Shown: positions 1 through 5,806 of the stretch, in pieces
Position numbering within the stretch: the stretch's first letter is position 1
How the letters are laid out: every line of letters starts with the position of its first letter
Assembly (NCBI RefSeq): GCF_018598185.1
Contig: NZ_JAHESC010000042.1
Span: 1-64,000 of the forward strand
Direction: 5' to 3'
Source of the DNA: Dawidia soli
GTDB lineage: Bacteria > Bacteroidota > Bacteroidia > Cytophagales > Cyclobacteriaceae
Length of the DNA: 64,000 nucleotides
Program-made: the position numbers and the translations under genes
The notes under the pieces: model-generated
The model's database searches: none
What the model was told of the DNA's origin: nothing
What the model saw: the letters and a program-made list of their open reading frames with translations, nothing else

Positions 1-235
1 CCACACGTCCTTCGATCATGCCGCGGGGGCTCGCTTAGTTGTAAAAGAGACAGGCCGTGCGGTTGGTGGGCCGGGTGCCGTGGAGGTGCCGCGGCCGGGG
101 CAGTCCTTGCCGGAAAATTCTCGTCCGGCGGACCCAAAATCGCCCCAACGACAGGCATTCGTAGCGCTTGGCTCCCTGATTTTGTAAATTATTTCGATTT
201 TGTCACAAGTTTTGTTTGTCGTTTGGTCGAATAGT

Positions 236-266
236 TTTGTTAATCTGCGAAGCTTTGCTACTTTTG
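236..266 (+). promoter_or_regulatory. Bacteroidota-type promoter for the tRNA-Leu genes
   Basis: A TTTG box at 236-239 and TACTTTTG at 259-266 are separated by 19 bp. This matches the Bacteroidota consensus TTTG-N19-TAnnTTTG read by the primary sigma factor. Transcription would start near 273, about 37 nt before the first tRNA-Leu. The rest of 1-235 shows no convincing gene; the minus-strand open frame there has no protein-like composition. Confidence 0.7.
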
Positions 267-309
267 TCGCCCCAACACGCACACACACTGCACTACCCAC
301 ACACAAAAT

Positions 310-393
310 GCCCAGGTGGTGAAATTGGTAGACACGCTACTTTGAGGGGGTAGTGCCTTAACCGGTGTGCTGGTTCGAGTCCAGTCCTGGGCA
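310..393 (+). tRNA. tRNA-Leu (GAG)
   Basis: A class II tRNA with a long variable arm. The acceptor strands GCCCAGG (310-316) and CCTGGGC (386-392) pair, with discriminator A at 393. The anticodon loop TTGAGGG gives anticodon GAG, so it reads CUC/CUU leucine codons. The T-arm has the usual GGTTCGAGTCC. CCA is not encoded. Confidence 0.95.
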
Positions 394-470
394 CCCGGCT
401 AGTCCGCTGGATCACAATAGGGAGACAGGAGGACTACACGTTGTAAGAACAGAAACAAACATAACATTAT

Positions 471-552
471 ACCGAAGTGGTGGAATTGGTAGACACGCAC
501 GTTTCAGGGGCGTGTGTCGCAAGACATGAGGGTTCGAGTCCCTCCTTCGGTA
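471..552 (+). tRNA. tRNA-Leu (CAG)
   Basis: Acceptor strands ACCGAAG (471-477) and CTTCGGT (545-551) pair, with discriminator A at 552. The anticodon loop TTCAGGG gives anticodon CAG, reading CUG. It has a long variable arm as expected for tRNA-Leu, and CCA is not encoded. It probably shares a transcript with the upstream tRNA-Leu(GAG). Everything from its D-loop (490) to the terminator is repeated at 854, after a GIY-YIG gene. Confidence 0.95.
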
Positions 553-554
553 CG

Positions 555-584
555 AAAGGCTTGTCATTGACAAGCCTTTTTTGT
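555..584 (+). terminator. Rho-independent terminator after tRNA-Leu(CAG)
   Basis: AAAGGCTTGTC (555-565) pairs perfectly with GACAAGCCTTT (569-579) around a 3-nt loop, followed by a T run. A degenerate copy lies at 936-962. Confidence 0.85.
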
Positions 585-610
585 TTCTTATTATCTTAAA
601 ACACGTTGAT

Positions 611-856
611 ATGAATTACTATGTCTATGCTATCCGTAGCTATTCTCGGAACTACATTTATGTCGGCTTAACTGACAATCCGGAAAGACGGCTCCATCAG
701 TATAACACTGGGCTAAATCGAACGACCAAACCCTATGCGCCTTTTAGCTTGATTTGGTCTGAGACTTTTCCATACAGGCAAGAAGCGAGAAATCGAGAGA
801 AGTATTTGAAGAGCGGCGTGGGAAAAGAGTTTTTGAAATCGTTGCTACCAAGATAG
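611..856 (+). CDS. GIY-YIG family nuclease (small, UPF0213-like)
   Basis: An 81-aa protein with the whole GIY-YIG core: YVY at residues 4-6, YVG at 17-19, the catalytic-type arginine in ERRL (25-28), and an EAR-REKYLKSG helix near the C-terminus. I chose the ATG at 611; the frame is open to 581, but that part lies in the tRNA terminator. Family members are one-domain nucleases, often of unknown role, found in many copies in Bacteroidota. The stop codon TAG (854-856) is at the same time the first three bases of a partial copy of tRNA-Leu(CAG). This placement suggests that the gene arrived together with, or duplicated, a tRNA segment. Confidence 0.85.
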   Translation: MNYYVYAIRSYSRNYIYVGLTDNPERRLHQYNTGLNRTTKPYAPFSLIWSETFPYRQEARNREKYLKSGVGKEFLKSLLPR

Positions 857-932
857 ACACGCACGTTTCAGGGGCGTGTGTCGCAAGACATGAGGGCCTG
901 CCTGCCGGCAGGTTCGAGTCTCTCCTTCGGTA
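854..932 (+). pseudogene. Truncated duplicate of tRNA-Leu(CAG)
   Basis: The segment repeats the tRNA at 490-552 from the D-loop through the anticodon arm, variable arm, T-arm and 3' acceptor strand, exactly 364 bp downstream of the original. It lacks the 5' acceptor strand and D-stem. A GC-rich palindromic insert (about 896-910) interrupts the junction of variable arm and T-arm. It cannot fold as a tRNA. It overlaps the GIY-YIG stop codon. Confidence 0.85.
896..912. repeat. Short GC-rich palindromic repeat (copy 1)
   Basis: Contains CTGCCTGCCGGCAG (898-911), whose core CCTGCCGGCAGG is a perfect 12-bp palindrome. The same 14-mer recurs at 15361-15374. Here it interrupts the duplicated tRNA remnant; the intact tRNA lacks it, so it is an insertion. 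Confidence 0.55.
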
Positions 933-935
933 CAA

Positions 936-963
936 AAGGCTTGTCAACGACAAACCTTTTTTT
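936..963 (+). terminator. Duplicated terminator after the partial tRNA-Leu
   Basis: A copy of the terminator at 555-584 with one mismatch in the stem, followed by a run of seven or more T. It would serve as terminator of the GIY-YIG gene. From here to 1201 I see no further gene. Confidence 0.7.
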
Positions 964-2846: not shown

Positions 2847-3827
2847 TTAGTGTTGGATAATGGAGAACACATCGATCTGATTTTCCGAAGTCCCCACCGC
2901 CACCTTATTCAGCTCCCGGTTATACACGATCGGAGGGACGCGCTTTAAATAATGAAGGATAGACGACACCTGCTCGCCGGCCGCCACATCTTCCATTTTA
3001 TCCAGCACCACGCCTGTTTGAATATCGATGATCTTGGGATACTTGTAGAAATCCCACGCGATACCATCGCGTACGCCCACGATATTTCCGAACTCTCCCG
3101 AAACGGTAACAGTATTCTTTACTGCGCCCGCTATAAAATCCCACGTAGCCAGGTTATGCGGCGGCAGCTCGTCGTCGGGTTCTGTGGCTCCCAGCAGCAC
3201 TTCCCGTTCGTTGATAAACGCACCGATGTTTTGCTCCATAAATCGGTCTACTGTCAGAAAGCGGCCATCGTCCAGCAGGGTCGGATCCGCCAGGCAGGCT
3301 TCGATATCATACAGGGCGCACACATCCAACGGATGCCACACCCACCCTTTCACCATCAGGAACTTACTATCAGGACTCAGTTCCAGCCGCGAATGAAATA
3401 TGTCCATCGGCTTTCTGCCGGAGATGTTGGTTACAATCTCCCCTGATTCGATATCCTCGAAATCCAGTTGATCGTAGCGTATCGGGCAGTGGATGAGATA
3501 AGTCTTACCTGCCGGTGATGTATAAAATGCTGCAGGATACTCGTAGGTCGTGGCATGGTAATACGTGCGATTGATCTCCCGCAGGAATTTACCCGACTTT
3601 AAAAGTACACCCTTGGTGCTGAGATTCTGGTAGACAAATACATACTGACCATCCTGCGAGGTGATACAACGGTCAAAAGGATGGGAGAGAACGAAGCCCG
3701 TGCGGCTCACGCTGCCGTCAAGTCCATAAAACGTCCAGTTGGTTCCATCGAGGATCGTGTTACCGAACCAGCAAATAGAGCCATTCCACCACTCGGTGGT
3801 AATAGTCTCTTTTTTAATCGTGAACAT
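2847..3827 (-). CDS. Orphan 326-aa protein, probable beta-propeller-like fold
   Basis: I do not recognise a named family. The protein has no signal peptide or membrane segment. It is rich in short beta-like stretches with WD/SPD-type turns (for example YVFVYQNLST, LELSPDSKFLMVKGWVWHP, YDIEACLADP), which suggests a cytoplasmic beta-propeller. It is transcribed from a promoter at 4006-4038 behind a leader of about 170 nt. A second, decayed copy with the same promoter and leader lies at 5071-5806. The first 60 or so codons and the leader are almost identical between the copies. Confidence 0.65.
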   Translation of the reverse strand: MFTIKKETITTEWWNGSICWFGNTILDGTNWTFYGLDGSVSRTGFVLSHPFDRCITSQDGQYVFVYQNLSTKGVLLKSGKFLREINRTYYHATTYEYPAAFYTSPAGKTYLIHCPIRYDQLDFEDIESGEIVTNISGRKPMDIFHSRLELSPDSKFLMVKGWVWHPLDVCALYDIEACLADPTLLDDGRFLTVDRFMEQNIGAFINEREVLLGATEPDDELPPHNLATWDFIAGAVKNTVTVSGEFGNIVGVRDGIAWDFYKYPKIIDIQTGVVLDKMEDVAAGEQVSSILHYLKRVPPIVYNRELNKVAVGTSENQIDVFSIIQH

Positions 3828-4748: not shown

Positions 4749-4970
4749 ATGATACGGGGTCTTATAAATTTCGGGCTTGTAATATTTTTGGTCCTTTCTT
4801 TGTTGATAGCGCTGGCGTACTTCGCCGCGCTCTACGATAAGATCAGTGACCCGCAATTTAAAAATCTTCGCACCGGAGAGTTCATATTCCTGGGAGCGGT
4901 CGTGTCGGCTTTGCTTATCGCGGATTATTTTATTGTGAAACGCTTTATAAAATTGATAAGAAAGTCATGA
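4749..4970 (+). CDS. Small membrane protein (2 TM)
   Basis: A 73-aa protein with two hydrophobic helices (about residues 5-29 and 45-63) joined by a short polar loop, and a basic C-terminal tail (KRFIKLIRKS). No family is recognised. It sits 100 nt after the secreted hypothetical gene on the same strand and may share its transcript. Confidence 0.55.
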   Translation: MIRGLINFGLVIFLVLSLLIALAYFAALYDKISDPQFKNLRTGEFIFLGAVVSALLIADYFIVKRFIKLIRKS

Positions 4971-5070
4971 GCCTGAAGCTGACGTCCGTGATCTTTTTCG
5001 ATCGCTTGGTGAAGTCGTATACCTATGATCGGCATCGTCAGGCCTCTGCGCTCCTGACAATCGAAAACAC

Positions 5071-5806
5071 AGCGCCATGCCCGTCCTGATGTCGATGATC
5101 TTCGGATACTTGTAGAAATCCCAGGTAGCCGGATTATGAGGAGGCAGGCTCTCATCAGAGTCCACCGTTCCGAGCAAAACCTCATGATCACTGATAAATG
5201 CACCGACATGTTGCTCCATAAATCCGTCGGCAGTCGGCACAATCCCATCGTCCAGCAGCGTCGGGTCCGCCAGGCACGCTTCTATGTCATACAGAGAGCA
5301 CACATCCCGGGGATGCCATACCCAACCCTTCACCAGGAGAAACCTGTTATCAGGGCTCACCTCCAGCCGTGAATGAAATATATCCATCGGCTTTCTGCTG
5401 GAGATATTGGTGACAATCTCGCCTGATTCGACATCCTCAAAATCGAGCTGGTCGTAGCGTATCGGGCAATGAATGAGATAAGTCCTTCCTGCTGCCGATG
5501 TATAAAATGCAGCGGGATACTCATACGTGGCGGCGTGGTAATACGGACTATTTATTTCCCAGGAGGATCTCACCTGCTTCAAAAGCACACCTTTCGTACT
5601 GAGGTTCTGGTACACAAATACATAGCGGCATCTTGGGAAATGATACACCGGTCAAAGAGATGGGAGAGCACAAAGCCTGTTCGGCTGACACTGCCATCAA
5701 GCCCATAAAACGTCCAATTGGTTCCATCGAGGATCGTGTTACCGAACCAGCAAATAGAGCCATTCCACCACTCGGTGGTAATAGTCTCTTTTTTAATCGT
5801 GAACAT
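5071..5806 (-). pseudogene. Decayed duplicate of the 326-aa orphan gene
   Basis: It is similar to the gene at 2847-3827 but broken in three ways. A one-base deletion near 5625-5635 shifts the frame after about 58 codons. An in-frame loss of 29 codons removed the stretch between two AAATCCCA direct repeats that are still present in the intact copy (3049 and 3136). Similarity ends at about 5071, so the last 55 or so codons are missing and the frame runs on into unrelated sequence to 4965. The promoter and leader remain, so the stump may still be transcribed. Confidence 0.8.

Follow-up and report, generated by a model that had tools for sequence, protein, structure and literature searches.

The first kilobase of the DNA analysed here, a 64-kb window of the Dawidia soli genome (contig NZ_JAHESC010000042.1, positions 1 to 64,000), contains a small GIY-YIG nuclease gene flanked by a tRNA-Leu gene and a partial copy of the same tRNA. 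Does this arrangement represent a mobile element that resides in tRNA genes, or did a host tRNA segment simply duplicate in tandem, taking along a nearby GIY-YIG gene that chanced to fall within it, without any mobility?

The tRNA-Leu(CAG) locus in D. soli and its congeners

All features of the locus lie in line on the forward strand. Two Bacteroidota-type promoter-like sites (TTTG-N17/19-TAnnTTTG) are found at 211..266, 5' of a pair of tRNA genes; they are consensus matches, and make up two of the three matches in the window, where 0.7 would be expected. The upstream member of the pair is tRNA-Leu(GAG) (309..396), a neighbour that the congeners keep in the same order. It is followed by the intact tRNA-Leu(CAG) (471..553), identified with ARAGORN and 100% identical to the single clean gene in four congeners, and by the intrinsic terminator of this tRNA, AAAGGCTTGTCA-T-TGACAAGCCTTTTTT (554..582). 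The nuclease gene (611..856, 81 aa) starts with ATG at 611 and is the only ORF between the tRNA copies. Repeat comparison places after it a 5'-truncated tRNA-Leu copy (854..933, tRNA positions 20-83) and a second, slightly decayed copy of the same terminator (934..962). The first triplet of the broken copy serves as the nuclease stop codon (TAG, 854-856), as a preliminary description of the locus had noted. Elsewhere in the window, on the minus strand, 2847-3827 and 4965-5806 encode near-duplicate proteins (MFTIKKETITTEWWNGSICWFG...), the second coding stretch being in pieces.

The preliminary description had treated the two tRNA copies as one repeat, 490-582 and 854-962, with a period of 364 bp. 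The repeat stands, but its period is not single: bases 490-532 recur at 854-896 without mismatch (43 nt, offset 364), and 531-582 match 911-962 at 90% with an offset of 380. The offset shifts because a 16-nt palindrome, CCTGCCTGCCGGCAGG, is inserted at the T-arm of the broken copy (897..912). This palindrome, which the earlier description lacked, is a signature of the Leu/Arg nuclease lineage. A 43-nt exact repeat within 3 kb is not a chance occurrence, since, of 65 control stretches taken 760-1100 nt 3' of small GIY-YIG genes, one reached a tRNA alignment score of at least 18. A direct repeat of tRNA and terminator is in itself in keeping with a plain tandem duplication.

The genus offers a comparison of the same site, as had been proposed at the outset. 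A single clean tRNA-Leu(CAG) gene is present in all six congeners, a distribution that speaks against the duplication of a host segment; one of them, G002, has the same upstream spacer and type of terminator as D. soli, and no such nuclease was found in its genome. Nucleases of this kind do occur in the other five congeners, for the most part at different tRNAs (Val, Asn, Met, Glu, Leu-CAA). A PF01541 search of the 7.5-Mb D. soli genome likewise revealed two further small GIY-YIG genes, both in one tRNA-Met array of the same design as the Leu locus. The array consists of a broken copy; an intact tRNA with terminator and nuclease; a broken copy with terminator and nuclease; and a last broken copy. 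In every broken copy a TCCGCC..GGCGGA palindrome (or a close variant) replaces part of the anticodon arm.

One tRNA-Val site of the genus exists in several states: two units in G003, one unit in G005 (with 94% identical flanks), a nuclease-less scar of intact and broken tRNA in G004, and a clean tRNA in G006. Within the genus, both occupancy and copy number are therefore in flux, which argues against an arrangement that is ancient and fixed in the clade, the finding that the preliminary description would have held against mobility. No occupied and empty pair with homologous DNA on both sides was found among the close relatives, and for this reason the exact insertion junctions at the window locus are unreadable; the tRNA-Val site, with its scar in G004 and clean gene in G006, yielded no insertion junction either. 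At the best candidate for an empty site, the tRNA-Asn of G003 (L319, G003:C6), 1219 N stand directly after the terminator, where relatives carry the element; they probably represent a collapsed or unassembled repeat.

Recurrence of the unit and its ties to tRNA isotype and palindrome

Small GIY-YIG genes were located in 60 genomes of the family and 148 of the phylum, and a sample of the loci was retrieved. A same-strand tRNA directly adjoins the nuclease at 94 sampled loci, and at 74 of these a recognisable second tRNA copy lies on the other side of the nuclease, compared with 1 of 65 control stretches. The unit occurs in two layouts. In the U layout an intact tRNA is followed by the nuclease and by a 3'-type copy with terminator; in the D layout a 5'-type copy precedes the nuclease, which is followed by the intact tRNA. 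The two layouts mix within nuclease lineages, the breakpoints of the broken copies span about tRNA positions 4-58, and tandem arrays reach 8 units with a period of ~320-410 bp. The earlier suggestion of a mobile GIY-YIG element with partial tRNA flanks thus gains from both sides, as relatives overwhelmingly have tRNA-derived flanks and the window site is empty in the congeners. Its more specific form, an insertion into the D-arm that carries a replacement 3' part of the tRNA, fails as a general rule, given that breakpoints vary and that 34 of 70 loci of the Leu lineage have the mirror layout.

The three-part design is found across a wide range of tRNA isotypes and genera, and in several phyla. 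This recurrence is hard to reconcile with plain tandem duplication as the origin of the locus, even though the arrays clearly vary in copy number by tandem duplication. A one-off duplication is refuted by the recurrence, the clean congener sites and the lineage-specific palindromes of the copies, and we regard the whole immobile alternative as very improbable.

Some loci depart from the usual layouts. An eight-unit tandem array (L203 1488-4280, G132:C34) contains nucleases with TCCGCC-bearing broken tRNA-Met copies; no intact tRNA was found in the array, the first tRNA is without its 5' part, and the array is apparently orphaned. Rows of 5'-type broken tRNA copies with a period of ~80-93 bp (L069 1040-1510, L121 952-1470, L122 867-1510) lie upstream of an intact tRNA, with no nuclease between the copies; some of these copies have palindromic anticodon arms.

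A sister clade of 41 GIY-YIG genes (~95 aa), from the same genomes, has no adjoining tRNA and is a built-in negative control for tRNA adjacency. An Rfam search of 20 loci of this clade found nothing, and these loci are therefore not at rRNA or other described RNA. The genes of the clade sit among palindromic repeats in intergenic DNA, of the GTCATTGCGAG / GTCATTCC type (L041, L046, L053, L098, L138 and others, in the family genomes), often with direct repeats of 100-330 bp on both sides.

Among the tRNA-flanked genes, the lineage of the nuclease tracks the isotype of the tRNA. A tree of 52 such nucleases from 30 genera, built on only ~80-95 alignment columns, requires 17 changes of isotype label for 12 types (the minimum being 11), compared with a mean of 38 and a lowest value of 32 in 500 shuffles. 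The Met, Val, Leu and Ser nucleases each form one clade with 98-100% bootstrap. Neither the host genome (47 vs 45 expected) nor the U/D layout clusters on the same tree. An independent set of 80 loci from named genomes was picked solely by protein similarity to the Leu lineage; the collection was scanned with the closer Leu set (A2), alignment A1 being too diverse. Seventy of the 80 have an adjoining same-strand tRNA (36 U, 34 D), which is tRNA-Leu at 68 and tRNA-Ser at 2; six of the ten loci without a tRNA reach a contig end. The hosts include Algoriphagus, Flavobacterium, Ekhidna, Mucilaginibacter, Ignavibacteria and relatives of Balneola, together with several candidate phyla and one Verrucomicrobiota bin, with the proviso that metagenome bins may contain stray contigs. 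The candidate-phyla nucleases fall among those of Bacteroidota, on too few alignment columns for a claim of cross-phylum transfer.

The palindromes follow the same lineages. A perfect palindrome with a stem of at least 6 bp is present in 34 of 43 aligned second tRNA copies, most often replacing the anticodon arm, and in 11 of the 43 intact tRNAs. The CCTGCC..GGCAGG type, CCTG[CT]C..G[AG]CAGG, stands beside 55 of 70 Leu-lineage loci (62 counting half-sites); in the lineages outside Leu and Arg it was found, half-sites included, at none of 78 loci. The Met lineage has TCCGCC..GGCGGA in 10 of 13 loci, and the Thr, Asp, Ala and Val copies have palindromes of the TCCCGA or TTCCGA type. Pairs of the same isotype share the palindrome type in 73% of cases vs 19% when shuffled, for types that were picked by eye on the same data; the Leu set is independent of that choice. 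The broken copy is therefore more than the decaying remnant that the preliminary description had taken it for, as it bears a palindrome specific to its lineage.

Where do the palindromes come from? They could be REP elements moved by RAYT transposases that pile up in unneeded tRNA copies. Palindromes of these types are indeed more frequent than a reversed-pattern control in most of the genomes tested, and in D. soli a gene for a 182-aa RAYT-like transposase (L153 1501-2224, G000:C87; assigned by eye, no profile) lies ~160 bp from another CCTGCCTGCCGGCAGG palindrome. Random invasion, however, would hardly account for a single type of palindrome in each nuclease lineage across phyla, or for the very low density of the palindromes genome-wide. 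In G053, taken as Chryseotalea sanaruensis, the 16-mer palindrome occurs at one place in the genome, within the element, and the palindromes therefore do not derive from an abundant genomic pool. A REP origin is in our view improbable. Across 60 genomes, dispersed CCTGCC palindromes showed no clear relation to the presence of a Leu-lineage nuclease.

The nuclease and its possible homing to tRNA genes

The window protein matches the GIY-YIG model PF01541 with 62.2 bits (cut-off 22.6, E=6e-17) over residues 2-68 of its 81 and has the invariant residues Y, Y-x-G, R, E and K. Y4, Y15, G17, R25 and E61 are invariant across 23 aligned members, which places the protein in the GIY-YIG superfamily. Values of dN/dS are ~0.04-0.17 for the informative cross-genus pairs and the G000 tandem pair, and 1.2 for one decaying pair; judged from these substitution rates, the protein sequence is under purifying selection. 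The protein has no NCBIfam model. Nor does it match any of the curated anti-phage defence models in PADLOC, where PDC-S14 gives weak matches (best E 2e-4) for a minority of relatives. No relative was found in 50,697 phage records or in the plasmids searched.

We consider it fairly probable that the locus is a minimal selfish element, in which a free-standing, catalytic-domain-only GIY-YIG gene sits inside a tRNA transcription unit and propagates through homing to the tRNA gene concerned. The units look like homing endonuclease genes because they keep to one isotype across genera and phyla, are patchy within a genus, almost always lie beside a working tRNA and encode a protein under selection. 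As is usual for such genes, the nuclease gene lies where its target is presumed to be and is missing from empty alleles, as in the clean congener tRNAs, and each lineage keeps one target gene across hosts. The anatomy and recurrence of the unit, its isotype and palindrome fidelity, the purifying selection, the arrays of varying copy number, the scars and the clean sites all support this reading. Against it, the proteins are without the extra DNA-binding region expected of textbook homing endonucleases.

We infer read-through expression, cleavage, homing and a role for the palindrome, which could be connected as follows. The nuclease would be made via read-through past the tRNA terminator, and would cut element-free genes of its own tRNA isotype, either in double-stranded form or as a hairpin-forming single strand. 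Repair of the break through tRNA homology from an element-bearing copy would then yield an intact tRNA, the nuclease gene and a broken tRNA copy. The palindrome in the broken copy may be the recognition or end structure of the enzyme, or may mark a cut site that has healed and is now immune. Recombination between the tRNA copies would make tandem arrays grow or shrink, and may delete the nuclease to leave a scar. It also counts against this reading that the intact tRNA next to the nuclease is identical to that of the empty allele, so that self-cutting must somehow be avoided. One possibility is that the target is the single-strand hairpin form, or a sequence that extends past the tRNA and that the element changes.

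If the homing reading holds, the units point to widespread chromosomal selfish genes of ~320-410 bp per unit, which parasitise essential and highly conserved genes without destroying them. They may also account for the incomplete tRNA genes and hairpin inserts that are a puzzle in genomes of Bacteroidota and candidate phyla. The three-way match of enzyme lineage, tRNA isotype and palindrome supplies nucleases that are naturally paired with their sites, so that the specificity of very small nucleases with a single domain can be tested directly. We tentatively put forward, as a possibility that goes further, a hitherto undescribed type of minimal mobile element in bacteria, composed of a nuclease gene and its cognate palindrome in isotype-specialised lineages and distributed across Bacteroidota, Ignavibacteriota, Balneolota and candidate-phyla bacteria; the enzyme would target tRNA-gene hairpin arms in single-stranded DNA and swap one arm of the duplicated copy for its own palindrome. 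The literature searched contained no report linking GIY-YIG proteins with partial tRNAs or with these palindromes; subscription papers were outside its scope, and a prior description is possible.

Comparison with known systems

Islands that carry tyrosine integrases also use tRNA genes as sites, keep the working tRNA and leave a partial copy. The present unit, in contrast, has neither an integrase nor a fixed attachment core; its breakpoints vary, and its copies are of both 5' and 3' type. REP/RAYT systems likewise combine short palindromes with a dedicated enzyme, but the enzyme here is a GIY-YIG protein (the sole ORF between the tRNA copies) rather than a Y1 tyrosine transposase, and the palindromes lie in tRNA copies. 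The solved structures nearest in sequence are UPF0213 GIY-YIG proteins, PDB 1zg2 (E 6e-16) and 1ywl (E 8e-14), followed by SLX1 and I-TevI. The UPF0213 entries are labelled hypothetical proteins, and to our knowledge these proteins have no tie to tRNA genes.

The Ssn family of Neisseria consists of site-specific single-strand GIY-YIG nucleases, and pairs such enzymes with a repeated site. The present nucleases resemble them as small GIY-YIG enzymes with a cognate, repeated palindrome-like site, and differ in being tied to tRNA genes by isotype. An Ssn-like enzyme would recognise its palindrome in single-stranded DNA and modulate the uptake or recombination of incoming DNA, its residence in tRNA genes being a by-product of hairpins that resemble the target. 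The catalytic-domain-only size, the single cognate palindrome of each lineage and the location of palindromes in, or in place of, tRNA hairpin arms (the anticodon arm more often than any other) are consistent with such a function; the rarity of cognate palindromes elsewhere, exemplified by the single site in G053, is not. On balance we think it rather unlikely.

The nearest experimentally studied parallel is SegB of phages T4 and T6. Enzymes of the Seg/I-TevI type have a catalytic domain followed by a separate DNA-binding region, and the 81-aa window protein, with its domain at residues 2-68, has no such region. SegB, a free-standing homing endonuclease of the GIY-YIG type, is over-represented next to tRNAs and has been implicated in the cleavage of tRNA-containing DNA, with no isotype preference reported (PMC13096335). 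It drives tandem amplification of a tRNA together with a C-terminally truncated segB, through microhomology between the 5' end of the tRNA and the 3' end of segB (PMC13096335). By analogy with SegB in phage T6, the present nuclease could be a domesticated amplifier that raises the dosage of its own tRNA, for example against tRNA-cutting toxins. The tandem arrays, the purifying selection and the SegB precedent itself (PMC13096335) would fit this function, but almost all of the additional copies are broken, in many cases within the anticodon arm, and the dosage of working tRNA is therefore not raised; we give this explanation little weight. In both systems a GIY-YIG nuclease lies beside tRNA genes, and the fused nuclease stop codons and tandem arrays of the present elements resemble the product of SegB amplification. 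What is new relative to SegB is that the present elements reside in bacterial chromosomes, encode proteins of ~80 aa that comprise only the catalytic domain, match lineage strictly to isotype, and contain a broken tRNA copy with its cognate palindrome.
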